Below are positions 1 to 64,000 of a stretch of 64,000 nucleotides of DNA, piece by piece (position 1 is the stretch's first letter; every line of letters begins with the position of its first letter). This stretch comes from Monosiga brevicollis MX1 (lineage: Eukaryota > Opisthokonta > Choanoflagellata > Craspedida > Salpingoecidae): contig NW_001865039.1 in NCBI RefSeq assembly GCF_000002865.3, positions 1,144,504-1,208,503 on the forward strand. Reading direction: 5' to 3'. The position numbers and the translations under genes are program-made. The notes under the pieces are model-generated. The model was not told the DNA's origin. It was given only the letters and a program-made list of their open reading frames with translations, and did no database searches.

Positions 1-106
1 CATACGTCCTCCTCAATAAGACCGCAATGCGGCTTGTTGCGTGGTGCACAATCCGTGGTGGACCTGACTCTTGGCCCATGACATGGCGTGGTGATGTTGG
101 ATACAG

Positions 107-1117
107 GTGTACGGCTTCTATGATGAGTGCATGCGTAAGTACGGCAGCCCAACCGTGTGGCAACTGTGCACTGAGGTCTTTGACCTCCTGAGCCTGGCTG
201 CAGTCATCGACGATAAGGTCCGTGCCCAAGTCAGAGGCCGGCATTTTGTGTGCGAGAACCATTGTAGCACACGCTAATTGCTCCCGTGTTCCTCAGATTT
301 TGTGTGTGCACGGAGGCTTGTCACCCTCGATCCAATCCTTGGATCAGATCCGCACTATTGAGCGCCAAGTGGAGGTTCCCTCTGAAGGCCCCATGTGTGA
401 CCTGCTTTGGTCTGATCCCCATGGTGAAGGTGCGCCTCTTCGTCTCTTGCCGAATCAAAGGTTCTGGTCCCCCAAAGTCCACGTGCGCGTACGCACACGC
501 CGTCCGCCGCCCCTGCACATGATCTGATCCTTTGCCCACAACCACCCACCCTGGGCACTCCCCCATTCAACCAATTAGAGCAAAGTGGCTGGTCTGTCAG
601 TCCACGGGGTGCTGGATTCTTGTTTGGCCCAGACGTGGTGGAAATATTCAATCAACAGAATGGCCTTGGTCTAATTTGCCGCGCTCATCAGCTCGTGATG
701 GAGGGTTTCAAGTGGCATTTTCAACAACAAGCCTGCACTGTCTGGTCGGCTCCCAATTATTGCTACCGGTACGCCCAGCGGCGTGGTATACGCTTGGTCT
801 TCGTGGCGATCTTGCTTGCCTTTGTGATGACTCGTTTCCACCTGTCGTACTTGCACGTGTGGTATCCACCCTCAAACGGCTTCACTCCTCTCGGGTCTTA
901 TTTGTGCTAGGTGCGGCAATGTTGCGTCGGTGCTGCGCATCGACGAACACCTTGATCACAAGTTTGTCATCTTCCAAGCCGCGCCAACGGTGGGTGCCAG
1001 CATTGCCACTGGTTTGGTGAATGAATTTGAGATGGGACTCGTCCTAACAAACGTTCGTCTTGTTCGCAGGAAATACGCCACGCCGGGCAGCGCACGGTTC
1101 AAGATTACTTTTTGTGA
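107..1117 (+). CDS. PPP4C: Protein phosphatase 4 catalytic subunit (3' part)
   Basis: Ser/Thr phosphatase of the PP2A-like group and catalytic subunit of PP4, which acts in DNA repair, centrosome maturation and splicing-complex assembly. Exons read as 107-217, 297-423, 579-768, 911-989 and 1070-1117, all closing in phase. Visible motifs are [55 protein letters not shown] and [13 protein letters not shown], which carry metal and phosphate ligands, and the methylatable C-terminus DYFL followed by TGA at 1115-1117. Residues such as [11 protein letters not shown] and [11 protein letters not shown] match PP4 better than PP6 or PP2A (from memory of the families). The N-terminal half, with the GDxHG and GDxVDRG motifs, lies left of the window. 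Bases 1-106 look like intron. Confidence 0.93.
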
Positions 1118-1199
1118 TCCATTCTTAAACATCACCCTCGCAACCCTGATGACATGCGCGCCATTCCACACACCGCTCTGGGCCAATACAACCGTGGCT

Positions 1200-1290
1200 C
1201 AGCCACGAGGGGAGATGCTCCTCTATTCACCCTACGTTGATCACACACGCACACGCGCACACACGCACACACACCCTGCCGTGCCTTGTC
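1200..1290. repeat. CA-rich simple repeat
   Basis: An interrupted (CA)n/(CACG)n tract, about 1243-1274, lies in the short spacer between the convergent PPP4C and coiled-coil genes. It is ordinary microsatellite sequence. Confidence 0.7.
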
Positions 1291-1367
1291 ATTTGTACTT
1301 TTCATCATCCGTTTCAGTCAATTCAGTCAATCAATTCTTCCCGTCACTTCTAGCAGCCGTGCCGTTC

Positions 1368-1935
1368 TTAGCTCGCAGTGGTTGCTGCCGTTGTCGATGC
1401 GGCTGTAGTCGCTTGCGCTGTTACCTGTGCACGAAGATTGTGAAAGGAGGTTGTCTCACGTAGCGCCTGTAGTCTACTCTGCAAGTCCAGCTCCATGCGC
1501 CGCAACTCGCGCTCCTCGTCCTCGAGCTGTTCCAAGGTTTCGTGATCCACATCTAGGCCAGCCAGTGCTTCCCGACACTGATCTAAACGCCCCTCAAGCC
1601 ATAGCCGCTGCGCAGAGGGTCCGATGGTGACCATTCATGTCCAGCAGGTGAGCCGTGTCAAAGCCAACAAAAGCCGAGAGCAATACCATCCGCCATCAAC
1701 CCTCAAACCTCGCTTCGTTCACGAGGCCGCCTCAGCACTTGGGTCGAGCGCATGCACGGTCAGCAACAACGGGGATGCTTACCTTGGTCTCCACAGAAGG
1801 CAAAGCTGTACGGTCGAGACAACAGGCCATAAACGCATGGACGTCTGGCGCCAGATTTGTTATGGCCTCGAGCGAATCGTTTATCGGGGCCTTGGGCGCC
1901 TCGTCAACTGAGGTTGCTGGAACGGTGTCTGCCAT
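1368..1935 (-). CDS. Small coiled-coil protein, possibly Mediator subunit 9-like
   Basis: Two exons (1783-1935 and 1368-1607, minus strand) join in phase 0 through a GTAAGC donor and a CTGCGCAG acceptor, giving about 130 residues starting MADTVPATS. The second exon is a charged amphipathic helix (residues about 52-110, with a QLEDEERELRRMELDLQSRL-type heptad pattern), followed by an Ala/Thr-rich tail. Length and helix layout resemble Mediator subunit 9, but no diagnostic motif was seen, so this is a guess. It is convergent with PPP4C, whose stop lies 250 bp away. Alternatives are a BLOC-1-like or kinetochore coiled-coil subunit. Confidence 0.6.
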
Positions 1936-2480
1936 GTCTCCTGGTCACACTCCAGCAGAGAGAGGATAAGCCTTGAACGCCTCAGTCTTCTTCCTTTACC
2001 GAGTCAAGGCATCCAAGCACCCACACTGCCACACCAGACTGGACCAGACGGGATCGAACTCGGCATGAACCAGGGTCAAGACTCCACCAACACCCCCAAA
2101 AGCGAGAAAAAAAAAAAAAAAAGTTGAAGTCGAGTCGAGTCATCAGCTTGAAAAAAAATGCGAGACAACACAAGTCAGACGATCAAGACAAAAGGCAAAC
2201 GTCACAGACGCAGAGATCCAGATAGAGACTGAGACAAAAGCAGAGATAGGCGACTGCGCAACAAACTGCTTTCGTGTTGAAGGAAAGCAAAATCAGAGAC
2301 AAGGACGGAAACTGAAACCGGGACAGAGACAAGGCAGAAACGTCGTCATATTTGTTCTTCAAGCACACTGGCTACGGGCTGCACGCGTTTGGCAGTCCAT
2401 GCCCCGATAGTTGGTCGAGCCCCTCGGTCTCTCTACTTCCGAGGTGCCTTTGTACACGCTCTTTGCGTGCCTCATATTAG
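1936..2480. other. Spacer between divergent genes
   Basis: About 545 bp separate the start of the minus-strand coiled-coil gene from the first recognised MED26 exon. The spacer holds an A17 tract (about 2105-2122) and purine-rich AGAGAC-like repeats (2210-2340). It should contain both promoters and the first MED26 exon or exons, but no coding segment could be fixed here. Confidence 0.6.
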
Positions 2481-3852
2481 CAGGTCCTCGTACGCAATTC
2501 CGTACCGGTGCAGTTGCAGGCGACCCGACGCGAGAAACCCTGCTCTGAGCTGAGCTCAAGTCGTGTCGAGGTCGACTTCGGCAACGCCACCTCTACTGCG
2601 CCGTTGGCCACAGAGAGTGATGCTGAAGCTGCGCTGAGCCCAATGGAGGAAACCGTGAACCATGTCCTTGGCCTCAAGGCCGTTTTGGACGTGGCTGCCA
2701 ACGTATGTGCAGTGGACCACGAGGATTGCCCCGCCTTTTGTCTGCCTTCCGACTCGCGCCCAAGCTGCTGGGCATCACCCCTCCGAACGCTCAACACCCC
2801 TGCACTCTGGGTCCACAGGCCGACGAAGAAACTCCCTTTGATGAGACCGCGGTCACCCAAGCTCTGCGAGACCTGTCCAAGATTCCCATGACCATTGAAG
2901 CGCTGCGCGCTACCAAGATTGACACCACTCTGGACGAGCTCAAGGCACGGATACCTGCCACTGCCCGGGAGTACGTACTTTTTCCCTGATGCGCTCGACC
3001 TGGCAAAAGCGTGCGCCTTGATTGTTGCTGCCTACCTGGCAAAAGCGCACGCCTTGATTGTTGTTGCCTGCATTATCCTGGTTGTCCTACAGTGCCGGGG
3101 ACTTGCGAAAACAGCTCAAGCATGACTTTCGCCAGCTGAAGCGAGAATATCGCCGGGTGAGTACACATCCTTACTGACCGTGAGACGCGGTGCATGCCTT
3201 CCCCTCACAACTCGACCTTGCCAATTTCCCCGGTCCATGCAATGTCGCTTTAGAACCCCAACAGCTTCAGTTCGCCGCGCTCCGACATCAGCTGGACTGC
3301 GATCCGTCAGCTTCCCGAGGACGAGCTCGGGCGCGCCGGCATCAAGCTGACATTGCGTGGTACGTTATGTTTTCAGTTCCTCTGGAGGCTCATGCATCCC
3401 CTAGCATTGACATAACCTGCCGCCAGCTCGCCATGCTGCTCGTGGTGATGTCTGCTGCCATCATCTGTGGCTTGTCTTCCCTGACGCGTGCTGATCACGA
3501 TGACACCCTAGGCATACCATCGTACCCACGCTCCCTCTCGCCCACATCTGTGGAGCAGGTTAATGACGACTTGGCCAGCCTGCCCGCTGAAGTTGGCCCT
3601 GCAGCTGCGACTTCAGAAGCAGGTGGAGCTGGCTACCAGGGGTCAGACGCTCGTGCTGCCATCTCAGGGCTGCCACCACCGACACAACGCCCAAGGATTG
3701 ACGGCTACTACCACGAACATCGCTGGCAGTCCTGGCGCTCCCATGTGGCCCTGCGCTACGTGGACCCCACCCGCCCACCCTTACCCTACGTGACCCCCGC
3801 CGTCATCAACACCAAGCCCATGGTGTTGATTCAGCCTTACGTCGTGCTATGA
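2481..3852 (+). CDS. MED26: Mediator complex subunit 26
   Basis: Mediator subunit that links Mediator to elongation factors at Pol II promoters. Exons read as (2481)-2702, 2819-2970, 3093-3156, 3254-3359 and 3512-3852, with consistent phases. Exons 2-3 encode a TFIIS N-terminal (LW) domain: ALRDLSKIPMTIEALRATKI, then LDELKARIP and AGDLRKQLKHDFRQLKREYR. The C-terminus ends DGYYHEHRWQSWRSHVAL...VLIQPYVVL, which matches the conserved MED26 C-terminal motif (GCYDxxGxWYxWTxC...LNILPYVCL) used to dock on Mediator. The linker is short and Ser/Pro-rich. The protein is about 290 residues, roughly half the human length. The first exon is open upstream to an acceptor near 2480. The only ATG in this exon is at 2642, so the true start is unresolved. 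Confidence 0.8.
2999..3070 (+). repeat. 36-bp tandem duplication inside MED26 intron 2
   Basis: A unit beginning ACCTGGCAAAAGCG occurs twice head to tail (about 2999-3034 and 3035-3070) with very few differences. It lies wholly within the intron between the two LW-domain exons, so it does not alter the protein. Confidence 0.75.
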
Positions 3853-4201
3853 ACATCTTGCAACCCGCTGGAATCTGCGATTCTCTGCTGGCGACTGTCG
3901 TCTGGCATCTTCCAAACTTGCGGTGGCGCCGAACCCACGACAAGGGTGCAGGCGGCGACCCATCGTGAAACAAAAAGAATTTAATGTTGTTTAACCGTCC
4001 TCTTTTTTTCGTGTCCAGCTGGAGGTGACTCTCGGGTAGACGCAAGCTTACGCCCACAGCACCGTCATTGCGTGCTCAAAAAGTATATGGTCGATTTTAA
4101 GCATCTCGTTGGTGCATGAGGAATTAGTCAGAAGAAGAAATGCGAGAATTGCCGCCGTGCGGAGAGCACTCCTTCCTTGGCTTGGCTCAAGCCAGGAAAG
4201 C
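3853..4201. other. Convergent 3' spacer
   Basis: About 350 bp lie between the stop codons of MED26 (+) and NDUFAF5 (-). Only 3' untranslated sequence is expected, and no conserved reading frame was seen on either strand. Confidence 0.6.
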
Positions 4202-5994
4202 TCAAGCCACGGGGTTGCTGGTCGGATTGAACTGCTCCCCAAGGTCTCTCAACGATGCAGTCGCACTTCCGCGAGCAGCAGCTTTGGGCTGAACGACCAG
4301 CAGCGAGGCACGAACAATACGTCAGACCATACGGCAGCCCAACAAATGAAGAGCAAAGGCCAGGAATAAAGATAAAGACGCACCTGAGAGGGTGCGGGCT
4401 TCCAGCCGACCATATGAATGACTTGAAAAGTTGCAGGGATGGTCCCATCTTCATTGCCGTAGACCGCTACCATGTGCACGCAAAAGAGTCAACCCGGCGT
4501 GTCGAGTGCCTTGAGGCCTGCACCAACGCTGCTTCAAACATCAAGACAGACTCACATTGATAAATGGCAGCTGCAGCATGCATAGTATCACGGCCCAGAT
4601 GGGCTTGCCGCCGAAGCCCCTGGAGCATACGGACGTGGAAGGCACGACAGCTGGGCTGAGGTACGCAGTCGACACTTTGCCAACATTGGACGAGGAGCTT
4701 TGAGCCCACGCCACTCAAGCCAGAGCAAGAAAAGGGTCGTACCGCATTGCTCTCGCCCATGCCACGCAAGTCCTCCAGTAGCTCGTACATGGAAGGAAAC
4801 GCCACGACAACTTCATCGACGTCCTGCCGAGCGCAAGATGTCCAAAATCAAATTCGGGATCAGATCTGACAATCGAGCACCCGTGACTGCACCCATGCCC
4901 CCTCATTTCCCGAGCCGTTACAACTGACAATGGTCAGAAGGTTGAACCCGGCTTGCTGCATCAGGTTGCCCACATCCCGAACTTCCGTAAAAGGTGAAAC
5001 GCGGGGAGCAAATCCCTGTTTGGCGTGGAGTAGAGTAGCGTAGACCGCACAGACGAGAGTGAAGCTATGAGGTTGTGGGTGATAGACCAAAAGGTGCAGG
5101 CGCGGGCCGGATATGCTAAGCTACACGTACGCCACGGCGCTCGATTTCTGCCATTTGCAGCGAGCTGCGCAGCTCATAGAGGGTGTCACCGCCAAACATG
5201 GCACCCACAAAGGGGGCATCGGGCTTGAGCACGCGATGGACCTGGCCCAAGGCCTGAGGAAGCAGATTGACCCAGTGCAGCGAGAGCGAGCTCACAACCA
5301 AGTCAAAACTGTTTTCTGCAAAGGGAAGCGATTCCTCGTCGGCGTGTACTTGCAAATGTTGATCCCGGCCCTCGGGCAAGGAATGGGCCAGCATTCCCTC
5401 GGACAGCTCGAGCTGCACGAGCTCGCCGGCGCCTTCGTCATCCAAGTGCTAAGGGCACGCGAGATAGGAAAGCGAGATAAAGGTATCCATCTGAGCAAAG
5501 GCAACGCCGGCCTTGTGCAAGCTTGTACTCTGCTGCCTCCATGGAATTGGGCCTTATACGTGCCGGGTACCCTGAAACCCAACACACCTCGCCAATGTAG
5601 CCCCGACCGGCCCCCAGGTCTAGCGCTCGGGGAAAAGAACGCTTGATGTCATAGACGCGGTCACACACACGCCAGGCCACCTCGCGCTTCAGCATCTCGT
5701 ACTGGCCCACCTCAGGGTCAACGCTCTATTCACACATGGGAGGGACGGGGTGATTTCTTGTCAGTGAGCCGTGAGACGCGAGAAAGAGCTGATGCACGGG
5801 CTGGAGCCAGCAGCACGTACAGCGCGGTTTCGTTGCAGGCGTTTGCTGTGTCGGTCAAACACGGCGGGCTGAGCCTCAGCCCCGCCTGTCGCCATACCAC
5901 GCCAGCCCTGCCTCACCCATCTTGGCCCACACCGCAACCCCCGACCCACTGCCTGCCATGCCAACACCAACTTCATCGCACCTCCTCGCCACAT
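4202..5994 (-). CDS. NDUFAF5: Arginine-hydroxylase NDUFAF5, complex I assembly factor
   Basis: Mitochondrial SAM-methyltransferase-fold protein. The human orthologue hydroxylates an arginine of NDUFS7 early in complex I assembly. Minus-strand exons are 5821-5994, 5588-5725, 5131-5448, 4929-5015, 4743-4823, 4556-4619, 4384-4466 and 4202-4288, all in phase. The N-terminus ([20 protein letters not shown] and on) is Arg-rich, as in a mitochondrial presequence, followed by [14 protein letters not shown]. The SAM site is [13 protein letters not shown]. Family blocks follow: [70 protein letters not shown] and [16 protein letters not shown]. The end is [16 protein letters not shown]. Start choice between ATGs at 5994 and 5976 is open. 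Confidence 0.93.
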
Positions 5995-6384
5995 GACCTC
6001 AAAAGAAGAAAACAAGAAAAAAAAGAGAGAGAGAGAGAGAGAAAGAGAGACGTGGGACTGGGGCATGTTTTTCTGACATTTAGGTCGTCCTTGCTCTGTG
6101 TGTGTGTGCTTTCAACAACAAAGTTTTTTTGGGGGGCGGAGAACAAGCGAAAATTTTGGGTTTTTCTGCTCTTGCTGCTCTTGTGTGGGCAGGAGTCGTG
6201 GCAGCGAATTCAAGCTGTGCTGGGTGGAGCGTGGGGCTGGTGGCCTGCGATTTGGACTGGTTGCCAAGTGGTGGTGTTGAAGTTTGACCGGTAAAAACGC
6301 GCAGCTAGCAAGTGGTCGCACGTGAAACGCTCACTCGCATTGACTCGGCCCGCTGGCCCTTCAACGCTATCGGCATCGCACACC
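5995..6384. other. Divergent promoter region NDUFAF5 / Tudor gene
   Basis: About 390 bp between two divergent starts. It holds a (GA)n tract on the + strand (about 6024-6052) directly upstream of NDUFAF5, then a G-run and T-rich stretch. Both promoters must lie here, but no TATA box stands out. Confidence 0.6.
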
Positions 6385-8532
6385 ATGAGCTGGCTACGGC
6401 CCAGTGCCTATGCTCCCTCCGGTGAGAAGCGCGAAAACCTTGCACTGGGTGCTCATCACTTCCATCGCCTGGCTTTTATTCATCCCTGGCTTTGACTTGG
6501 GTTTTTTTGCAGGCTGGCAACGTGGGGATGCGGCACGGCTACGCAACGACGACGGCCGTGTTTTCGAGTGTCTCATTGACGACGTAGACGAAGGTTTGTA
6601 CTTTTGTCATCCTCGTCATTTTGGCCGTCGAGACCGTGGGCAACACTGCCCTGTTCCCAGTCTCTCGGACCCTGGGTTAATTTACCGGGAAGCTGACCGC
6701 GCATCATCCTCACGCAACACAAACACCTACATCAGATCGAGGAGAGGCCACCGTGTACATTCACGCTCTCCGAACGACAGAATCCGTGCCCTTGGCGGAT
6801 CTCCTTTCTCCTGGTGCGCCTGGCATGCCATGAACCCATCTCGACAGCCTTGCAATGCGTTTTTCTCGTGGAACAGGTGGCTCATGGACCACGACATCAT
6901 AGCTGATGAAGCTCCTCCACCCATGCGCCGCAAGGGCGGGCCGGCTCATCGACCACCTGCTCTGGGCCTCGAACCCACAGAGCGGTACAGACTCTCCCCC
7001 TCCCTGATTCGCTTATCAGCACCGACCTCACCATGGCACTGCACAACTTGTTTTGTTCTAGGTGGTTTGACATGGATCCAGCGCCCAGCGACCTTCGCCC
7101 CGTGGATGTCCCACATGTAGAACCTTACTTTCGACGTCAACGGCCTGCCTCAAGCATCTTTAGCGACAGCATTCACCTACGACCGGCGCGTGCTGCACGG
7201 CATCGCCCCACCCGCCGACAGGATGATGATGACTTTGACCCCATCCCCCCCTTGCCAAGCCAACCGCCTCCCCCCCTGCCAAACTCAAGGCACCACCTTG
7301 AAGAAGATTCATCCGAGAGTGATGCAGGCTCGATCAGTCGTCCTCCTACACTGCCGCGTGACATGACGCGTCCAGCTGAACGCACACGCTCCTCGCGCCG
7401 CCACAGATCAGTGGCCTTTCAGGACCAAGCCATGAGTGAGGAGTCCGATTCAGAGCTGAGTGATCCACCCACACCCTTGATGGGTAGTCACCTTGCCAGT
7501 GAATCAGATGATGATGACACATATGGGCATGCGCGCGGTGTGTCTTCTCTTCAGGACTCGCGCGACAATTTCCCCCCTCCCCCGCGTGAACCTGCTCCTC
7601 CCGTACCCTTGCGCTGGGATGACGAGCCCCTGTCGCAACCGCCTCCGGGCGCTCAGGTACAGCGTGGTGGCCAGTGGGCGCAATCACGAGCCACTGCGAC
7701 CAAAAGTGATGCTGCCGAGTCATCACGATTACTGCAACAGTTCCGCGGCTACGGTGGTCTTGAAGCAGCTGAGGCACTTTCGGACGCGGCGAGCTCATCG
7801 GAAGATGGTGATGGTGCTCAGAGTCCGCCCATGCCAATTGCCGCGGCCACCATGCGTGAAGTTGAACTCGAGGTCTTTGACGAAGGCGAGCTCACGGATG
7901 ACGAAGATGATGAGAGCATCATTCTTTTTGACGACGATGAAGATGAAGCCGACGAGGATGATGCAGACAGCATGCGCCATCACGCACGCAACACCGGGCA
8001 AGCTTTAGCCTCACACCAGGAAGAGTTTGAGTATGACGATGAGGAAGATGAAGACGAAGAGGGGGAAGGTACAGACTCGGACGATCGAGACGGTGCTGAC
8101 GACATGGACGTTTTCGAGAGTCGCACCTCGCGCGACGAACCTGCCGACATCGTCCCAGCCCACTCCCCTCGCAAGAGCACGACATCAGTTTTTGCCGATA
8201 GCCCAGGCACAGAAGTGCTTCTTTTGGCAGAGCGTGTGTCGCTCGGTGCCGAGGATGACAGCGACGGTGCGTGCTAAAATGTGTCCCCCGGCCTTGGGAT
8301 CACAAGTTCGACTGTTGGTTGTGATGATGGCCATTCAACAATAATTGTGTTGGAGTTTTTGTGGCGAAAAGCGAACCTTTGTCACTTGTGACACCTTGAG
8401 TCCCCACACGCACTCACCACGCTGTACGTGTCCTCTTGCCGGGACGCAGCGGAACGCAATGACGTGGCTGAAACACCGTTGGATGGCGCGGAACAGCAGG
8501 AGGATCACGTCGCCGTTGCGATGACCCGGTAG
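6385..8532 (+). CDS. SMN/SPF30-type Tudor-domain protein with acidic low-complexity tail
   Basis: Exons 6385-6421, 6513-6593, 6736-6813, 6903-6984, 7062-8266 and 8450-8532 join in phase to about 521 residues. Residues about 13-65 form a Tudor domain of the SMN type: WQRGDAARLRNDDGRVFECL, then DDVDEDRGEATVYIHAL and the end LADLLSP. This aligns with SMN (W-KVGDKCSAIWSEDG...LSDLLSP), which binds dimethyl-arginine on Sm proteins. The rest is predicted disordered: a Pro/Arg-rich part (PIPPLPSQPPPPLP), then long Asp/Glu/Ser runs (DDEDDESIILFDDDEDEADE). No C-terminal YG box and no Gemin2-binding N-terminus were found, so it is not a full SMN. A role in snRNP or splicing biology is inference. Confidence 0.78.
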
Positions 8533-54286: not shown

Positions 54287-56191
54287 ATGCCTGCCCCACC
54301 CGACGAGTCGGCAGACGACATGAAGCGCAAGCTTGCCCTCTTCGGTGAGTACCAAGGCCTGTCAGGAAGAGCACGCTTGGTCTCCGTTTTACAAATTCTG
54401 TCGTGCTCACGGCGGATGCAACTTTTTTTGCTGCACTCGTCCAGAGGGGGACAAGCGTGCGTTTTACGAGAGCTCGCAGCGGGAGATGAACGACAACCGC
54501 GCTGAAATTACTCGTCTGCGCAAGGAGAACAAAACCATGGCTGCACAGCTCAAGCAGCTCAAGAAGCCTGCTGTGGCTCATCGAGCTTCAGGTCCCGTTG
54601 CCCTCACCCAGGGCGAGATTCAGACGGTCGTCAAGAAGCGCAACACGCTTCGCCACCAGATCAAGCAGGCCAAGGCCAAACACGAGGCCCAGCTCAAGGT
54701 GCTGCGCGAGCTCGAAGTCGAGGGAGACTTTGTCAACAATGAAGGTGGGGCTGCTTCGAGTGAGATGCAGCAGATTCGGCGTCTGGAGAACAACCTCGAC
54801 AAGGCCAACATCAAGGCACAGGAGGCACAACACATCAAGCAGACCTATCTCAAGATTATTGATCAGCTGCAGAAGGATCGCCTTCAGTTCGATCAAACCA
54901 TTTCAGGCCTTGAGAAGACTCTCGAGGGACGCAAACAAGAGCTTGCCCAGCTCGAGGCGATGTGCCAGGATGCCTGCGCGGCCCGGGATGCTGCGCGCAA
55001 TGCCCTCGCCCAGAAGGAGATTGAACTGGCCGACCAGCGCAAGGCGCGTGAGACAGAAAAGGCACAGCTCTCGGCCCAGGTGGAAGAGCGGCGGCGTCAA
55101 TACGAGGCCATGGAAAAGCGCTTGCGCATGGCCTCAGCCAGTCAAAATCGCAAAAACGCCGGTGGGTATTTGTGTTTGCCATGTTGCGCCGCAGTCCTGT
55201 CCTTCCCGTTTTGTCTCAGCGCTCTGTCACTCACGCTGGCTGGACGCCGTGCCATGTTTTGCCTTGCCATTTTGCCAGCGGACACGGACTCGTCCAAGAC
55301 ACAGGAGCGTTTGATGACGTACGAGGAGGCGATGGCTCGCATCCGCGACGCCACGGGCGCATCGGACGTCCACGAAGTCGTACAGCGTTTCATGAACCAG
55401 GAAGAGTCACAACGCCACTTGCAAAAGCTTCAGCAAGAGAACCAAGCCAAGCTGGCCGAGCTCCGTGAGGTGAGGCAACACATCTGGGTAGGCATTGGCC
55501 TCGTCATTCTTGGCGCCGCTTTGCTGATGGGAGGGGCTGTTGCTTTGCACCTGGGCGTGCTGGTCTGCAGGAACACGCTCGCAAACAGAAGCAATTTGAG
55601 GCCCTCAAGTATTCGGGAGAGGCCCGCAACACGGGCAACCAACGCATTCTCAACGAGTTTGAGAACCACCTTAATGCAGCACAAACCCGCCACCGCGGGG
55701 CCAAGGAAACATCAGATCGCCTGAACAAAACGTTGGTGGCTCTCACGGCCGGCATTGACGCCTTGTACGCCAAGCTGGGCGTGCTCAAGCCCGTCAAATT
55801 TCGCGCTGCCAACAACGTCATGGACAAGCTTGTGGAGAGTCAGCTGCGTCTGAAAACCTTGCACGAGGAACTCGCCAGCCGCAAAACGGAGCTTCCCGAC
55901 GGTCTGCAGGGCGAGAGCATACCTCGCATCCTGCCCCAACACAATACTCGTGTTAACCTCAATGACACGGTCGACGGTATGTTGTTGGTAGCAGTCTTCC
56001 CGATCGCCCATCGCCTCTTGACAACGCGCCACGCTTTCCCTCACGCCCGCTGTGCCCTGGTCCCCATTTGTACTACAGGCGAAGAGGAAGAGGACGAGTT
56101 TGATGACGATGAGTTCATGTCTCGAGACGCCATCAAGCGCCAAGCGCAGACCGTGGTGGAGGCCAAGGCCGACAAGAAGCGCGTCATCTAG
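54287..56191 (+). CDS. ODAD3: Outer dynein arm docking complex subunit 3 (CCDC151)
   Basis: Coiled-coil protein that helps dock outer dynein arms on ciliary doublets. Exons 54287-54344, 54445-55161, 55279-55469, 55571-55976 and 56079-56191 join in phase to 494 residues. Matches to CCDC151: EGDKRAFYESSQREM (human EGDRKAFFESSQ), ITRLRKENKTMAAQLKQL, RNTLRHQIKQAKAK, IRRLENNLDKANIKAQEAQH (human [20 protein letters not shown]), MARIRDATGASDVHEVVQRF (human VKDATGTDETHSLVRRF), ALKYSGEA, and the end EEEEDEFDDDEFMSRDAIKR. The N-terminus is shorter than in vertebrates. Expected in a flagellated cell. DYNLT1 in the same window also serves dyneins but is not adjacent. Confidence 0.93.
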
Positions 56192-56477
56192 CTAGCTTCT
56201 TGGATCCGACAATTTTCTTGCCTGCGTGCAGAATTGCGCGCCAGGCGTTTGAAATAATCACTTATCCCTAAGCGTCTTTCCTGTTTGTTCTCGCCCTTGA
56301 ATCGCATCAACTGTCACCCTTCTTTGCTCATTGTTCTTGGCAGCATCAGCCTAGTTGATCGGTCATGGTTCTCCTTGAATCAATATCTGGTTCTCAATTA
56401 AAAATTTAATGTCATCGGAAGCGCCTCAAATGCTCAACCCGCCAATGAGCAATAAAGCCATCCAAACGGGCCAGGCC
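56192..56477. other. 3' region of CCDC151
   Basis: About 285 bp, AT-richer than the coding DNA and including TTAAAAATTTAA. Nothing else was recognised. Confidence 0.5.
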
Positions 56478-56756
56478 TCAAGACGGCGCGGTCGTACCGC
56501 CTTGTTGGCCACGCTGCAGACGGTTGCCAATGGCCCAATGTTCTAGTTGTTGCCGCAGTCGCACCGCTCGCACCGCATCTTCCTGCTCTGCTTTGGCCTG
56601 AGCCGTCAGGGGCAGCACGTCGTCGCTCTTCCCCCAGCGCGGCCAAAATCGCCACCTTCGAGGCCATCGACGAAACATGCTAATCCCCGCACCAATGAGC
56701 AAAAAAGCGAGCATCAACGCCCACCCCCAAGCGATCCCGGCCCCGCCTGCTGCCAT
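56478..56756 (-). CDS. Possible small single-pass membrane protein
   Basis: An open frame of 92 codons from ATG (56756): MAAGGAGIAWGWALMLAFLL begins a clear hydrophobic helix (residues about 3-25). Trp/Arg-rich FRRWPRRWRFWPRWGK follows, then a charged helix (AKAEQEDAVRAVRLRQQLE). It resembles small ER or mitochondrial inner-membrane subunits in layout, but no family was recognised. The Arg/Trp stretch could partly reflect GC-rich composition. No intron or conservation evidence is available. Confidence 0.45.
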   Translation of the reverse strand: MAAGGAGIAWGWALMLAFLLIGAGISMFRRWPRRWRFWPRWGKSDDVLPLTAQAKAEQEDAVRAVRLRQQLEHWAIGNRLQRGQQGGTTAPS

Positions 56757-57011
56757 TGTCGTTATGAAGCAGGGGTCGGACGCCGAACCGCATCCACCCA
56801 CTGCCCTCGTTCTTAGTCATCCAAAAAAAAAAAATGCTTGGAAAGATCTGACATTTGATGAGGTGGTGATAAATTTTTTGACAAGCAAACAACACACAAG
56901 AAAATCATCATCATCAAAGGGAACACTGCCTGGAGCTGGATTCATCTATGGGGATGCATCTATGGCCGACGCTGGGGAAACAGCTTGAAAGCAGAACTTG
57001 CTTGTGTGAGT

Positions 57012-60000
57012 CTACCCAAGATCTGCCAGCATAATGCTGAGCTGCTCCTGAAGTGACCCTCCCAGCGCCTCAGGTTTGTCACCCAGGTTGAGGATGCGAA
57101 ATTCTTCGGCGGGATACATCCCAGCAAGGGCTGTCTCGAAGGCATCCGTGTATGAGTTGATGTGCACAAAGGTGAAACGCACATTTTTCTCTTTCAAGAG
57201 ACGCATCGCGTTTTGAACTCGGGTGAGGTGGGACTGGCCATGCTTGGGAAAGCCCGCGGGAGGTCCAGCAGGGTAGCTATCACCCGAGCTCACGAACGGT
57301 TGGCCGTGTTGAGGGGCATCAGCCACGAGACATAACAACTTCATGCTCTCTGCCCGCCAGCTGAAAGTCTCCGCAATCAATTCTAACGCAGTTGCCGGTT
57401 CTTCGGGGCCATCACCGCCGCCGGTGGCCACCTGAGCGTTGATTTTAGCGATGACCTGTTGCACATTGGTTGTCAGATCGATCGAATCGACCAAGTTTGG
57501 GCCGTCACTGTAGTCACGATAAGCCACAAAGCCAACACGAATACGGGGTGACGCCAGTTCTCCAAAGCGCTCGCGAACTTGATTTTGCACGTGCTGAACA
57601 ATCTGTGCCAACTGGCTTTTGCCCGCTGCGATCCATGAGCCCATCGATCCCGTGCAATCCATTGCAAGAGCCAGGTCGACGTCCACGTTGAAGGTGCTGT
57701 CAGCTCCCCGGGTCAGCTCGACATGGATTTCCGTCAGCTGATTCGCCTCCGCCTGGGCTGCAAGCGTGGCCGTCATGGGGCTAGGCTGGCTCAAGACACG
57801 CTCAACTTTTTCAAATAGATCGTCGGGGGCTGGTGGAAGGACTGAATCGTGAGAACTTTGCGTGCTGCTGATGGGTGTGTTTGCGTTGAACTGCGATAAC
57901 AGTGCGTCGAGACCACCAGTTAATTCAAAAACAGAAGGCGCTTCAATGACATTCAGCACCTCGGCCTCACGATGTCTTGGGCTAGTGCCGAGCTTGAGGC
58001 GAATCACTTGCACACCGTGTTGGGCAGCATAGTCCTTGGCCGAAGGGGTGAGCCAATTGTTGCCGTCATCTCCCAGCACAAAAAGAAAGCCGGTCTCGTT
58101 TGCCAGCGTCGATTGGACAAGCATATCTACCCCGGCACAAATGGCTTGGCCCAAAGGTGTTCGGCTAGCCCCAGCAGTGCCGGCATGGGCCAGCAAGTGT
58201 ACGATGGCCGATTTCACTTTGTCGTCCAGACGCTCACTGGCCTCCTTGGCCAGCACTACATCGTCATTGCCAAACCCGTATACGAGTGCATCATGAATGC
58301 CAAAGTTTGTCAAGGCTTCTAGCAGCGTGATCACGGCCTCTGCTTGACGAGCGTGCATGTCATCTAGGTTGGTAGACTCTGACATATCACAGGCCAGCCC
58401 AAACTTGTAGGCCGGCCGTCCTTCAGGTACATAGCGTTGCCAGTAGTCCTGGGAAGTCCAGTGGGTGGCCTTGCACTGCATGAGGCGCTGAGGATCAATG
58501 CTTTTGCCTGTCTTAAATCCGGTGCGCTTGCGAACGGATGACTTGGCATTCAGGCGTTCCTCGAGCACATCGGCAATTGCGTTGATGGGCAGCGATAAGT
58601 CGCGGCGTGCTTGTGCCCACCATTCAAGCGCCTGAGCATCTACGTCCACCGTTTGTCGATGCTCGATATGCTCGCGCTCGAGAAGTGCCAATTCTTTGGA
58701 AGTTAGAAATGGCGTTGGACGCAGAGACTGTACAGTTTGGGTCGGCTCAAAGTGCACCAGCGTGTCTCCCTCGTTTCGTCGGAACTTGGGCAGCCACTGC
58801 GTTGTCTGAAGCTGTGCATTCGTGGAAGTGTGGGCCGAGCTCAACCGAGGCTTCGGAAAGGCGGGGCACGGCTGAGTAGTGACTTTTTGACGCAACAAGT
58901 GATCTCTGATTCGATGAGCAAAAAGCTGACCAAGCATTCCTCCTAGCTTGTTTGCCACCGCAGGTTCGATAACTTGCAGTGCCATGCGATCTTCAAAAGC
59001 TGTTGCCATTGAGTTCGAATCCTCGGACGTGGAAGCGACCTGCAAGCAGGTGCAATGCACGCCTTGCTGACGAACGTCTCGCAACACCTTGGTCAAGCTA
59101 GACTCGGCCTCGGATTCCAAAACGCGAGCTTGTCCCGAAATGCCATCGCTCACAAGCATCATACACTGCACATACTCCGTCTGTACAGCTGTGTCAGCTC
59201 GATTGGCACGCAGTTTGCGCAGGTGCCGACCGGCACTGGACACGGCGTCGGCGATGGCCGTACCAGTTTGCTGGAAGGACATACGCAGCAGGACCTGCTC
59301 AATAACGTCCCAGGATGCAGGGACGTCAAAACCCTTTAGAAGAGTCAATGCGCCGGGTCCGGCAAAACGTAAGACGGCCGTGGGTTGCTCCAGGCGGCGA
59401 AGAGCTTCCAGAAGCAGGCCAACCGCAAAACGTGCAAGAGCCCCTTCTTGGCCACCCATGGAGAGAGAATTGTCTACGACCAACACAAGCTCCAGAGCAA
59501 CGGAGCGGCCAGGCTTGTCTTGAAGGGCTCGTGTAATGCAACGTGTGAGATCAAAGATCTGGTCCTGAGCAAGCCCACTCAGCTTTGCAATCCAGCTCTG
59601 GTAAAGATCATCACCGTCCATGGCGTCGGCCAACTCGATGACGTTCAGTTTGGCGTCCGGATCCAGCAAGCCCACTGCCCGGACGACCTGCCTGCCTCGT
59701 GTGCGACGAAATTGTTCTTGTGCAGCTCGAAGCAAATCTCCATTGAGCTCTACTGCAACGCGCTGAGGCGCACGCTTTTCAGAGCCGAGCGATGCTTCAA
59801 AGGCAATGTGTTGCACCTTGCTCAAGTCTACGGCGGGTCCAGCAGTGCTAGCATGCGTCGCGGCTCGCTCGCTCACAGCCTCCACAACACGCGCGCTACT
59901 ACTCAGGGCAGCACGCAGGGCCTTACTCTCCAGCACGGTCGCATGGGACACAGGTTGCGCTAAATCATCTTGAGGTGCAACGTTGGTGTGCGGCCTTGCG

Positions 60001-63000
60001 TGTGAGCGCGATCCTGCAAGTCGCTCCAGCTCTTGTTTGGCGCGCTGCTCATCTCCCAACTTCTGTAGGCGTGAGTTTTGCACATCATGGAGCTGCTTGT
60101 ACTGGCGCTGCGCTCGCTTGATGGAGGTTGCTGGATGCCGGGGCGTGTCAAAGGCGGGGAGCTCAGCCTCCGACGCTTCGGCATCAAGCCATGCAAAGCC
60201 TTCGGATGCACATATACGCGAGGCCGGCAAAGCCAGCCAGTTTTGCCACCGTGCAAATTGCTGGGCTTCATTTTCGCTTAACATCGGTGGGGCGAGGCTC
60301 AAAAAAGTGTGATAGATTTCATGCCTTCGCGTTGCGGTCAAGCCCTCGAGCAAATCGCGCAGGTGCTTTGATTGAAGCTGCGAGAGTCGCAATGCCGTCT
60401 TTGTATTCCACAGATATGTCAACAGCCGCTGCCATAGCAGTTGAGCAGGTCGATCATGCAGAGTACTGGCTACGAGACCGTCCATTTTATGCAAAAGGGC
60501 CTGCATGCTTTGCTCATTGCATTCAATAAACTGGCACAAGGCGCTGAGAGACTCAAGGGGCTCTCCAGCGGTCGACTGCCACGGCACGGTTGGCCCACAA
60601 AGGTCTGTTTCAGGAGTCAACGAGACGCTCGTGCGTGCCAGCTCCTCGCGCAAAGTCTCAAGATGCACTTGCGTCGGAGGTGCAATCAATACGCTAATGG
60701 CACGGTCGGCCCACGCGACGAGGAGCGGTTTCTCATCATTACTGTTGCTGTCTGGCGGGTGATAATCATGGCTTGGCTCATCCCAGTTGCTGTGCAAGGT
60801 TGGCGTAGCCATTGAAGCATCTGTGTGCGGCATGTCAGGCATCTGTAAAAAGGGCAGCTGATGGCGCGCGGTTGCAGGTACATTAGGCCATTGCCAGCGG
60901 CTTGCGCAAAGTAAAGCTTGAACTTCGGGCCAGACACCGTTCTGGAAAATTTGAGCCAGTTGGACTTTGCGCTGTTTTTCTTGGCAAAGCTTGGCGAAGC
61001 TTGCTATTTTGGGCTGAGCGGCCAGGTCGGCTTCAGGAGGCAACGGAGCTCCTGTCAAGGGGTGAGCAAGGCCGTCATGTGCGCACTTGAGAATGCATTT
61101 GCGGCAAAAGACATGGCCCGCAACATCAATTGGATCAGTTGGAATATCCATGCAGATGGTGCACTCGAGATCATTGAGCTCATCGGACGAAAAATCGTGT
61201 GGAGATTGGCGTGGGACTTCGCTTGCAAATGTGCTCAAGATGGCGATTGTAGGTACATCATGCAACATTAATGTCGTGGCTTGGCAAATATCATCAACTG
61301 GCCACCAATCGCAAGAAACCAGTTGCGATAATGGCCGGGTCAAGTCATCCAGGCATTGCAAGGCAATATTGTCTTGCAAAAAGCAGGCCAAGGCGTGCGC
61401 CTGATCGATAGCATTGGTCGATAAAGTCAGGTTTGTCACAGCCTCCCAGGTATCATTGGTCAAAAGTTGCAAGGAAATGAGAAGCTCTTTTGCTGTGTTG
61501 TGCACTTTGAAGGCTTGCAGCGGCTGCAGCTGTTGTGTGAGCTCTTCGTGGTCGAGGCCGCGGACTGCAATGACAAAGTGCAAAGCTGCGGCCATGCCCC
61601 GGTCTGCAGTTGCAATTTTCTTCTTTTTGTGTTTCTTCTGGTTTTTCTTCCCTTTCCTTGCCTTTTTCGCGGGTTGGCTGCCTTTGAACGCGCTTGCCAC
61701 GGCTGCCACGGCCTTGGTCATCAAACCTCTCAGCCCCGCCTTTTGTGGCATAGCCGCTTGAAGCAAGGACTCCTCTTCCACATGTGCTGCCTCGATGTCT
61801 TTGCCGTCCTCCTCATCTAATCGTGAAGACGAAATCTGAGCGACCACGATGGCCAGGGCTTGATGACACGGCTCGTTTATGGCCAACAGCGCCTCTGCAG
61901 CATCAAATAGTTCATCCAACAGCGTCTCGTCGTGTGAAGTGCTGGGCTTGGAATACTGCATAATTAGCCGCAACAGCATCCAGGCTAGACTTGTAGGTGA
62001 GTTTCGATTTTCCAAGACGTCCTTGAGTTTGTCGCGCTCCTCTCCTGACAAGAATCTTGTGTCCTTGAGCGCTACGAGCACATCTTGAAGGGTGCGTTGA
62101 GGCTTGTCCACTTTAAAAAACTCACACACTGTTTGTACGACGTCAGAGGACTCTGCCTCCAGCCACGCTGGGATGCTGCTCACAGCACCAAGGCCGACCA
62201 GCCCAACCCATAGTGCCCGCAAAATGCTCTCTAGCTGGTCATCTGCTGAGGCTTTCAGACCGCGTCGAGCGAGCTCAACAGACCGCGAGAAGTGAGATTC
62301 AGGCCCAACAATTGCACCACCAATGCACAGAATGGCTTCATACCAGCTCTCTCGTGAGTTCTCATGCTCTGCAACCAGTAACATATTGGCCTCTTCCGAT
62401 GTCAGTGTGACACCCAGCTTGCGATTGCAGTACAAGACCAACAAGTCAGCCTCGAGCTCCTTGCTAAATGCTTCATCCAAGATTCGGGGCCACATCGGGC
62501 TCAATTTGAAGCCAACAAGGTCGTCAATGATCGCTTCCGTCGACTTTTCCATGAAGCGGTACCATCGACTTTCGTCCAGCTTCAAAGCTTGTTGCACTTG
62601 CGCAATTGACGTAATGGGGCAGTGCACATCGTTTTGCAAAGCGCGTAGACAGCATTCGCGCCGATCTGTGTTACTGAGTGCTAGAGCAGTCAAAGGATAC
62701 TGACCCGGGTCATCAAGGACCAGCGCGCGAATTTTCTCCTTCAACTGTGGTAGAGATAACTCTTCATCCCTCTCCCGCCATCGATCGACGTGAGGAGATG
62801 CAGCGCCCGTCAGTTGCAAGGCCAGCAAATAGCCTTGAACGACGCTGTCAGGACTCCAAGCGTCAGCAGAAGCAAGGATGGCCTGGTCAGTTGATAAGTC
62901 GTGCTCAGTAAGTTCAGCGAGCAAGTTATTTGTTGTACTCTTAGACCAGCGTTGGGGTTCAAAGCCAAAGGCGTTTGTCAAGGCTTGCGAAGCCTCCTTG

Positions 63001-63998
63001 GAAACGGTGCCATTGCATCCACTGAGAGCCATCAAGACGCCGTCTTCAAAGTTATCACTGCCTTCTGCAATAGCAGCCGTGTATGAGCGTGGGACGCTGG
63101 GCTGGGGCATGACGGCCATCTGAAGTGCAAGATGATAGATTGCTGGCCCAGACTCGCCATGCTCATTTGCGACCACTTCATTCGTGGTCAAACGCAGCAC
63201 AATTTGATACAGCATGTTCATCGGAAGCTGGTCAAGGGCGCGTTCCAGTTGTTTCTCCCACTCCTTTTGGTTCTCAGGCAGCTTCAAATTTATAGTGAGC
63301 GGACGGCTTCCTTGCGGCGGGATTTCAAGCCGGTTTGTCAGCCTGATTGACTTGATCAGGCCAAGTTTGGTGACCTTGATGGCGTGGTCGCCTGCTTCGG
63401 ATTCCGCGTGGGCGCGCCTGGCATTTGCTGAACAAGCTTCGAGACACAAGTCAATCTTGACAACAAGTGGGGAGCCACCGATGTTTTGTAGAGCCAAAGA
63501 CGGAGAGCACGAGCGAGTCAAGGCGCCCAAAGACCAAATTTCAGGTAACTTTTCCAGTTCTGGTTGGTGCAAAGTCACTCGTAACTTCAGCTTGAGCTCT
63601 TTGTTGACCGCGGTCGTTACAACACTGATGTCAAATTCACCACCGCGTTCTTGAAGTAGACGGCAGTGAAGTTGAATCTTGCTCATCTGATTTGCGGAGA
63701 TTGTGCGCGTGGATGTGGGCAGTTGAGCCTGGAGACCAGGCGATGTGGACACGTGAAGAAGCTGTGCGCTACAGGCACCTTTGTTCTTGATGTTCAGCTC
63801 GAGATCAAAACCTTTCAGGGCATCATTCACTTCAAGTTTGCACACGTTCTCGCGTGGTGAGAGCAATGTAAGCTCGGTGCCCTCAAATTTCGACCTCATT
63901 CGCCAGTCGACCCGAGGTGTCGAGGGATCGTTGGTCCACACGTTGACAGATTGGTCGATGGGAAAAACAAAGTGACGCCACCCATCCACCTCCAACTT
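57012..63998 (-). CDS. Giant intronless RING/U-box plus triple vWA-domain protein (5' end beyond window)
   Basis: One uninterrupted frame of at least 2,327 codons, open to the right edge without a clear ATG, so N-terminally partial. Residue numbers count from the edge. About 1-270: beta-rich Ig/ASH-like segments. About 300-940: helical, unassigned, with a Lys-rich run (KKARKGKKNQKKHKKKK, about 775-795). About 942-990: RING/U-box-like finger LECTICMDIPTDPIDVAGHV, FCRKCILKCAH, LTGAPLPPEADL. About 1495-1700: vWA 1 (LVLVVDNSLSMGG, perfect DxSxS MIDAS). About 1865-2060: vWA 2 (GLACDMSESTN). About 2105-2327: vWA 3 (LALAMDCTGSMGSWIAA, of the alpha-kinase VwkA type). Family unknown. E3-ligase and metal-dependent adhesion or assembly roles are inferred from the domains. 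Confidence 0.88.
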   Translation of the reverse strand, partial: KLEVDGWRHFVFPIDQSVNVWTNDPSTPRVDWRMRSKFEGTELTLLSPRENVCKLEVNDALKGFDLELNIKNKGACSAQLLHVSTSPGLQAQLPTSTRTISANQMSKIQLHCRLLQERGGEFDISVVTTAVNKELKLKLRVTLHQPELEKLPEIWSLGALTRSCSPSLALQNIGGSPLVVKIDLCLEACSANARRAHAESEAGDHAIKVTKLGLIKSIRLTNRLEIPPQGSRPLTINLKLPENQKEWEKQLERALDQLPMNMLYQIVLRLTTNEVVANEHGESGPAIYHLALQMAVMPQPSVPRSYTAAIAEGSDNFEDGVLMALSGCNGTVSKEASQALTNAFGFEPQRWSKSTTNNLLAELTEHDLSTDQAILASADAWSPDSVVQGYLLALQLTGAASPHVDRWRERDEELSLPQLKEKIRALVLDDPGQYPLTALALSNTDRRECCLRALQNDVHCPITSIAQVQQALKLDESRWYRFMEKSTEAIIDDLVGFKLSPMWPRILDEAFSKELEADLLVLYCNRKLGVTLTSEEANMLLVAEHENSRESWYEAILCIGGAIVGPESHFSRSVELARRGLKASADDQLESILRALWVGLVGLGAVSSIPAWLEAESSDVVQTVCEFFKVDKPQRTLQDVLVALKDTRFLSGEERDKLKDVLENRNSPTSLAWMLLRLIMQYSKPSTSHDETLLDELFDAAEALLAINEPCHQALAIVVAQISSSRLDEEDGKDIEAAHVEEESLLQAAMPQKAGLRGLMTKAVAAVASAFKGSQPAKKARKGKKNQKKHKKKKIATADRGMAAALHFVIAVRGLDHEELTQQLQPLQAFKVHNTAKELLISLQLLTNDTWEAVTNLTLSTNAIDQAHALACFLQDNIALQCLDDLTRPLSQLVSCDWWPVDDICQATTLMLHDVPTIAILSTFASEVPRQSPHDFSSDELNDLECTICMDIPTDPIDVAGHVFCRKCILKCAHDGLAHPLTGAPLPPEADLAAQPKIASFAKLCQEKQRKVQLAQIFQNGVWPEVQALLCASRWQWPNVPATARHQLPFLQMPDMPHTDASMATPTLHSNWDEPSHDYHPPDSNSNDEKPLLVAWADRAISVLIAPPTQVHLETLREELARTSVSLTPETDLCGPTVPWQSTAGEPLESLSALCQFIECNEQSMQALLHKMDGLVASTLHDRPAQLLWQRLLTYLWNTKTALRLSQLQSKHLRDLLEGLTATRRHEIYHTFLSLAPPMLSENEAQQFARWQNWLALPASRICASEGFAWLDAEASEAELPAFDTPRHPATSIKRAQRQYKQLHDVQNSRLQKLGDEQRAKQELERLAGSRSHARPHTNVAPQDDLAQPVSHATVLESKALRAALSSSARVVEAVSERAATHASTAGPAVDLSKVQHIAFEASLGSEKRAPQRVAVELNGDLLRAAQEQFRRTRGRQVVRAVGLLDPDAKLNVIELADAMDGDDLYQSWIAKLSGLAQDQIFDLTRCITRALQDKPGRSVALELVLVVDNSLSMGGQEGALARFAVGLLLEALRRLEQPTAVLRFAGPGALTLLKGFDVPASWDVIEQVLLRMSFQQTGTAIADAVSSAGRHLRKLRANRADTAVQTEYVQCMMLVSDGISGQARVLESEAESSLTKVLRDVRQQGVHCTCLQVASTSEDSNSMATAFEDRMALQVIEPAVANKLGGMLGQLFAHRIRDHLLRQKVTTQPCPAFPKPRLSSAHTSTNAQLQTTQWLPKFRRNEGDTLVHFEPTQTVQSLRPTPFLTSKELALLEREHIEHRQTVDVDAQALEWWAQARRDLSLPINAIADVLEERLNAKSSVRKRTGFKTGKSIDPQRLMQCKATHWTSQDYWQRYVPEGRPAYKFGLACDMSESTNLDDMHARQAEAVITLLEALTNFGIHDALVYGFGNDDVVLAKEASERLDDKVKSAIVHLLAHAGTAGASRTPLGQAICAGVDMLVQSTLANETGFLFVLGDDGNNWLTPSAKDYAAQHGVQVIRLKLGTSPRHREAEVLNVIEAPSVFELTGGLDALLSQFNANTPISSTQSSHDSVLPPAPDDLFEKVERVLSQPSPMTATLAAQAEANQLTEIHVELTRGADSTFNVDVDLALAMDCTGSMGSWIAAGKSQLAQIVQHVQNQVRERFGELASPRIRVGFVAYRDYSDGPNLVDSIDLTTNVQQVIAKINAQVATGGGDGPEEPATALELIAETFSWRAESMKLLCLVADAPQHGQPFVSSGDSYPAGPPAGFPKHGQSHLTRVQNAMRLLKEKNVRFTFVHINSYTDAFETALAGMYPAEEFRILNLGDKPEALGGSLQEQLSIMLADLG

Positions 63999-64000
63999 CA

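Follow-up and report, generated by a model that had tools for sequence, protein, structure and literature searches.

The window (the whole 64,000-nucleotide stretch of DNA that was analysed, G000:C56:1144504-1208503) contains the C-terminal third of one midasin-like AAA protein, hereafter the giant, which occupies positions 57012..64000 on the minus strand. The giant frame is open across the window edge; it stays open through all of the neighbouring stretch L003, and then to position 4455 of stretch L004. In total, the stopless frame is 7147 codons in length and reaches 1222958 on G000:C56, or 78455 in extended coordinates. At the local base composition, the probability of such a stopless run is ~10^-128. 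Upstream of this long exon, four further exons are in phase; their borders, each with a GT donor and an AG acceptor, were hand-chosen for an open frame. Several acceptors of the long exon are compatible with the open frame; with the preferred one, the predicted giant is 7323 aa in size (807.9 kDa). The whole-genome searches covered 39.5 Mb in 57 contigs of a probable choanoflagellate, and eukaryotic genes, such as dyneins and midasin, were identified in the same genome by Pfam.

One plus-strand gene (window 55469-57014), which is coiled-coil-rich by eye, is located tail to tail with the giant; the stop codons of the two are ~820 bases apart. Directly upstream of the giant, the minus strand carries frames with many PDZ-like repeats, recognized by eye. 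These frames are at about 5900-10000 of L004 and 1-6053 of L005 (G000:C56 about 1224400-1234560), and they look like a giant multi-PDZ protein.

The features of the giant are given below, from the N- to the C-terminus. ORF numbering is that of the 7147-residue long frame, and the domain borders were set by eye.

57012..64000, minus strand: the part of the giant frame inside the window, open across the window edge
ORF 75-664, minus strand: helical-looking region, judged by eye and not by a predictor
ORF 665-2990, minus strand: six AAA modules (Pfam AAA_5; P-loop and Walker B by eye)
ORF 2991-4470, minus strand: helical-looking region after the ring, judged by eye and not by a predictor
63081..64000 (whole region ORF about 4470-5125), minus strand: distal part of a beta-rich-looking region, by eye
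61617..61667 (ORF 5597-5613), minus strand: polybasic stretch of 17 residues, position from sequence
60969..61172 (ORF 5762-5829), minus strand: half-RING finger and, after it, an LTGAPLP tail (Pfam; residues by eye)
58896..59498 (ORF 6320-6520), minus strand: vWA 1 (DNSLSMG), generic VWA by Pfam, with weak CobT_C
58416..58643 (ORF 6605-6680), minus strand: pre-MIDAS element of midasin type with TGK, TGFKTGKSIDPQRL (alignment with the genome's own midasin; PDB)
57876..58415 (ORF 6681-6860), minus strand: vWA 2 (DMSES), MIDAS-like, joined to the pre-MIDAS element (PDB)
57126..57683 (ORF 6925-7110), minus strand: vWA 3 (DCTGSMGSW), VWA_4 (Pfam)

Three pieces of the giant frame were searched against NCBIfam, and nothing was over the cut-offs. 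For the beta-rich-looking region, the Pfam scan of the in-window part gave 0 families; beyond the window, Cep192_D6 matched with an E value of 0.015 and ASH with one of 0.2, each well under cut-off. This region is possibly ASH/Cep192-like, a very weak assignment. The polybasic stretch (residues 5597-5613) is a candidate nuclear or nucleolar signal, a role it may play in the giant.

The original prediction, made from the window alone, had asked whether an AAA module lies past the window edge and suspected a partner of the MoxR/midasin type. Such a module is indeed present in the same chain, as a set of six. AAA_5 matched the giant with 71.8 and 111 bits (Pfam cut-off 22), and six P-loop/Walker B sites were located by eye in the one chain. 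In phmmer searches against the PDB (E 0.1 or better), midasin accounted for all five matches of the L003 AAA piece (best 1.3e-32) and for five of the eight matches of the N-terminal L004 AAA piece (best 1.6e-35); the other three were bacterial NorQ/CbbQ, with E values of 0.0035 or worse. Dynein and RNF213 were absent from both of these match lists. The genome protein searches were performed with the C-terminal 2328 aa and the two AAA pieces, on either side of ORF 3152-4818; they recovered the giant itself and the midasin locus only, with no further copy of the giant. Apart from itself, the L004 piece has one match in the genome (E 3.8e-14, 33% identity) and half of the L003 piece has five (best E 1.9e-9); every one of them is in the canonical midasin locus. 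The suspected kinship is thus borne out by the AAA_5 modules, with midasin nearest in both the PDB and the genome.

C49, around 1083000-1100800: canonical midasin locus, with AAA modules, midasin lid, acidic region, pre-MIDAS and MIDAS

Compared with the six modules of the genome's own midasin, the giant modules reach Smith-Waterman z values of up to 31.8 (200 shuffles each), whereas the comparison with dynein (three modules) and an RNF213-like frame (one module) gives 6.6 at most. By raw score, four of the six giant modules (3, 4, 5 and 6) pair best with their equally numbered midasin counterparts; modules 1 and 2 best match midasin modules 2 and 3. By z, the cut giant module 6 is closer to midasin module 2 (29.0) than to midasin module 6 (26.8). 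When the module order was permuted, the identity order ranked 55 of 720 and was not favoured. A tree of 16 AAA module rows resolves just one pairing, that of the two sixth modules, giant and midasin (84/76).

By eye, both Walker A and Walker B are kept in giant modules 1 and 3 only; Walker motifs are lost in modules 2, 4, 5 and 6. The Walker A-to-B spacing is 280 residues in module 4 and 185 in module 6 of the giant; in the own midasin, the same modules span 97 and 176 codons. Since this spacing is just 65 residues in module 2 of the giant, the module-2 insert (AAA2H2alpha) is missing. As reported for yeast Rea1, this insert is autoinhibitory (PMC11603028); the lack of such a plug suggests that docking of the MIDAS domain would not be blocked in the giant as it is in Rea1. 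Between ORF 2991 and 6605, no 60-residue window of the giant is above 28% D/E, so this part contains no long acidic region. As a control, three of five own-midasin pieces ahead of its MIDAS reach 37-50% D/E. The giant does possess one acidic-serine stretch (up to 33%), which is located within module 4.

Midasin is a ribosome-assembly motor. The giant could be a second one, a duplicated MDN1 that strips UBL factors from pre-ribosomes and uses its finger and extra vWAs as scaffold. The midasin kinship, the MIDAS domain with its pre-MIDAS element and the polybasic stretch, which could serve as nuclear signal, are all consistent with this role. However, the canonical MDN1 locus is already present in the genome, the giant is strongly diverged, and it has neither the autoinhibitory module-2 insert nor the long acidic region; we regard such a role as unlikely. 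The relation to midasin is itself strong, and, judged by its sequence, the giant is best described as a diverged midasin paralogue.

Within the window, three vWA domains of different kinds were predicted to follow the finger. By eye, each of them possesses a DxSxS or DxTxS motif (DNSLS, DMSES and DCTGS). In the whole frame, vWA 1 (window-frame residues 1504-1659) matched PF00092 with 40.3 bits (cut-off 23.8) and PF13519 with 39.4 bits (cut-off 27), two stretches being summed in each case; the segment alone gave 27.6 bits for PF00092, over the cut-off, and 24.3 bits for PF13519, under it. Against the PDB, the two matches of vWA 1 at E 1 or better include no vWA. When searched alone, vWA 2 has no Pfam vWA match, and just DUF1194 was seen at a sub-threshold level. 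Against the PDB, vWA 2 matched the midasin MIDAS (6qt8), with an E value of 0.0035 for the whole frame and 4.9e-4 for the segment; for the segment, the match after it is at E 0.46. vWA 3 matched VWA_4 with 23.9 bits in the whole frame, under the cut-off of 27, and with 29.5 bits as a segment, over it; it is the sole VWA_4 match found in the genome. Any mutual likeness of the three domains is below detection (z 0.2 to 1.1). The predicted domain order, with three unlike vWAs, holds. For the 908-aa segment with all three vWAs, AlphaFold2 from single sequence gave a mean pLDDT of 36.7, too low for a structural reading.

It was vWA 1 that had been taken as the midasin/MoxR-partner type, and this assignment needs amending. 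Compared with the own-midasin MIDAS as bare domains, vWA 1 (z 4.9) does score higher than vWA 2 (z 2.3); however, the pre-MIDAS element sits with vWA 2. Because bare vWA 2 scores below vWA 1, the MIDAS assignment of vWA 2 rests on the joined element: pre-MIDAS and vWA 2 together gave z 12.6 against the own midasin, and a tblastn E value of just 0.98. With these modest scores, vWA 2 and the preceding TGK element resemble a MIDAS domain with its pre-MIDAS. Likeness to midasin across the whole length, which the original prediction had held against a new architecture, is seen in the AAA ring and in the MIDAS portion, and not in the remainder.

The weak relatives of vWA 3 are bacterial vWA proteins, with 13 plasmid records; the top-ranked of the ten listed is 34.5% identical. 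These bacterial matches, the presence of several vWAs in one protein and a weak match to bpMoxR of the MoxR-vWA-beta-propeller systems (E 7e-5; 22.4 bits by Pfam, under the cut-off of 27) would fit a eukaryotic counterpart of bacterial MoxR-vWA conflict systems, in which a gated sensor built from the AAA part and several vWAs restrains an effector, here a ubiquitin-type finger. Midasin, however, is far closer to the giant than any MoxR, and Pfam scans of the giant found no propeller and no effector domain. We consider this counterpart highly improbable. The ubiquitin-coupled surveillance role that the original prediction offered as speculation is neither favoured nor contradicted by these results.

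The finger had been described as RING/U-box-like with a U-box-like tail. In the whole frame, zf-RING_UBOX (PF13445) matched it under the cut-off (E 0.001, 19.4 bits against 25.2); the cut segment is over it (E 6e-6, 26.6 bits), covering profile positions 1-26 of 39. Zinc site 1 is complete (C5765, C5768, C5784 and C5787). By eye, zinc site 2 keeps one of its four ligands, H5781, and the third Cys of the finger is replaced by Ala; the terminal CxxC pair is absent, with an HPLTGAPLP stretch in its place. Located nearby, C5791, H5793 and H5798 could act as stand-in ligands. The U-box model PF04564 found six places in the genome and the finger was not among them, by which U-box membership is ruled out. 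Of the description, the RING-type match of the cut segment and zinc site 1 stand, whereas the finger is a half RING and the U-box model is negative. A basic linchpin residue is a criterion of RING/U-box E3 ligases; by eye, no basic residue was seen at that place of the finger. AlphaFold2 from single sequence gave a mean pLDDT of 46.0 for the finger (101 aa), again too low for a structural reading. The finger is possibly an E2-recruiting module.

Two frames in the genome were labelled RNF213-like, an assignment inferred from the RZ finger, RING and P-loop that the C31 frames carry:

G000:C31:36335-50041, minus strand: RNF213-like frame of 4569 aa, with RZ finger and complete RING (Pfam)
C31:232536-258731, plus strand: RNF213-like frame of 8732 aa, with RZ finger

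The two share 93.5% identity across an alignment of 3987 aa. In the longer frame, the first 4744 residues are unaligned; three plus-strand frames are open together there, and this stretch is probably a repeat.

Like RNF213, the giant could be an immune E3, in which an AAA core and a ubiquitin-ligase module mark intruders; both are giant AAA chains with a RING-type finger, and few ATPase sites are competent in either. The comparisons argue against this. RNF213 is missing from the PDB matches at E 0.1 or better, and blastp of the giant against the 4569-aa frame gave nothing better than E 0.54. The RZ finger (PF20173) was found at four places in the genome, three of them over the cut-off and none at the giant locus, and a separate giant with RING and RZ finger is present on C31. 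We consider an RNF213-like immune function very unlikely; membership of the giant in RNF213 is ruled out by the PDB lists, the PF20173 search and the blastp comparison.

The AAA_5 search of the genome gave 24 matches, best candidates only being scored: 3 in the giant, 7 in the C49 midasin locus, 11 in dynein heavy-chain frames, 1 ClpB-like, 1 VWA8-like by eye and 1 on C54 without a class beyond AAA_5. Pfam classified a first set of nine segments (7 dynein, 1 ClpB-like, 1 midasin) and a further three (2 dynein, 1 AAA_5 only); the remaining matches were assigned by their position in the same frames or locus. A genome-wide family of such giants was rejected, as the matches elsewhere are midasin, dynein and other AAA classes. 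The VWA8-like place, another AAA-vWA protein, is on the minus strand of the giant's own contig (G000:C56:1416001-1426000). The C54 domain (G000:C54:1006851-1007288, minus strand) is located in a 2507-aa frame; from a short piece, Pfam did not assign it to dynein, midasin or ClpB.

All in all, we think it reasonably probable that the giant is an AAA+ mechanoenzyme of the midasin kind, composed of ring, lever, MIDAS grip, finger and extra vWAs. The sequence itself displays the parts from which such a machine would be built: a single open frame that encodes six AAA modules with midasin as their nearest relative, the pre-MIDAS element with vWA 2, two further vWAs, and a finger with zinc site 1. 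That the modules assemble into a ring, that force is produced, what class the client belongs to and that an E2 is recruited are what we infer from them. The six AAA modules would form one pseudo-hexameric ring in a single chain, and the long post-ring region would be the lever. vWA 2, as a MIDAS-type domain, may grip the client, probably via a ubiquitin-like fold as the MIDAS of midasin does. ATP use, probably in modules 1 and 3, would then pull the client from a larger complex; the half-RING finger could bring an E2 or other partner to the held client, and vWA 1 and vWA 3 might bind further clients or the ring. Reports on related proteins describe that the midasin MIDAS holds UBL domains by catch bonds (PMC8837202), that the midasin linker generates force (PMC11603028), and that MoxR-clade AAA proteins act with vWA co-chaperones, dynein apparently excepted (PMC7159879).

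The combination of an AAA motor, a ubiquitin-ligase-like finger and extra cargo-type domains suggests a complex-extracting, possibly ubiquitin-marking machine. That the midasin paralogue was recast as an extraction-coupled ubiquitin ligase, whose finger modifies the MIDAS-held client or its partners while they are being pulled, is a tentative proposal and, in our judgement, rather unlikely. If true, the AAA-giant-plus-E3 plan, known otherwise from RNF213, would have arisen a second time and independently, in a close relative of animals. Reuse of the ring-plus-MIDAS machine for a different task would be demonstrated by a diverged giant midasin that bears a ubiquitin-type finger and three vWAs. 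Such a protein would also allow an independent comparison with RNF213 on how AAA mechanics are joined to ubiquitin enzymes, and it makes testable whether MIDAS domains hold ubiquitin-like folds outside ribosome assembly.

A single-protein scan with the window-frame protein, which detects close relatives only, found none in viral and genome contig collections, and the architecture was not found described in the titles and opening lines of open-licence literature. Among known systems, bacterial MoxR-vWA systems (RavA-ViaA, NorQD and bpMoxR) and the giant are alike in coupling a MoxR-clade AAA to a vWA. The bacterial systems consist of separate proteins with one AAA module, and none is known to have a ubiquitin-type finger in the same chain.

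RNF213 (mysterin) is, like the giant, a very large single chain that joins AAA modules to a RING-type finger. RNF213 is not known to have a vWA. Its AAA modules are too distant from those of the giant for detection, and the giant is absent from the RZ-finger matches. Different from the half RING of the giant, the RING of RNF213 is reported to be complete, with two zincs; among its AAA modules, only AAA3 and AAA4 are described as competent ATPase sites (PMC7311170).

Midasin (MDN1/Rea1) shares the following with the giant: six AAA_5-type modules per chain, inserts in modules 4 and 6, a long post-ring region, and a MIDAS-type vWA preceded by the TGK element. The giant is bigger (about 7320 aa against nearly 5000), its sequence is strongly diverged, and it coexists with canonical MDN1 in the genome. 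Unlike midasin, the giant has no insert in module 2 and no long acidic stretch ahead of the MIDAS; it adds the finger and two extra vWAs, one of them after the MIDAS-like domain. The catalytic motifs of yeast midasin are reported to be intact in modules 2-5 (PMC11603028); by eye, the giant keeps Walker A and B only in modules 1 and 3. The midasin-type machine itself is known; what appears to be new here is a diverged giant of this type with E3-like and vWA additions.
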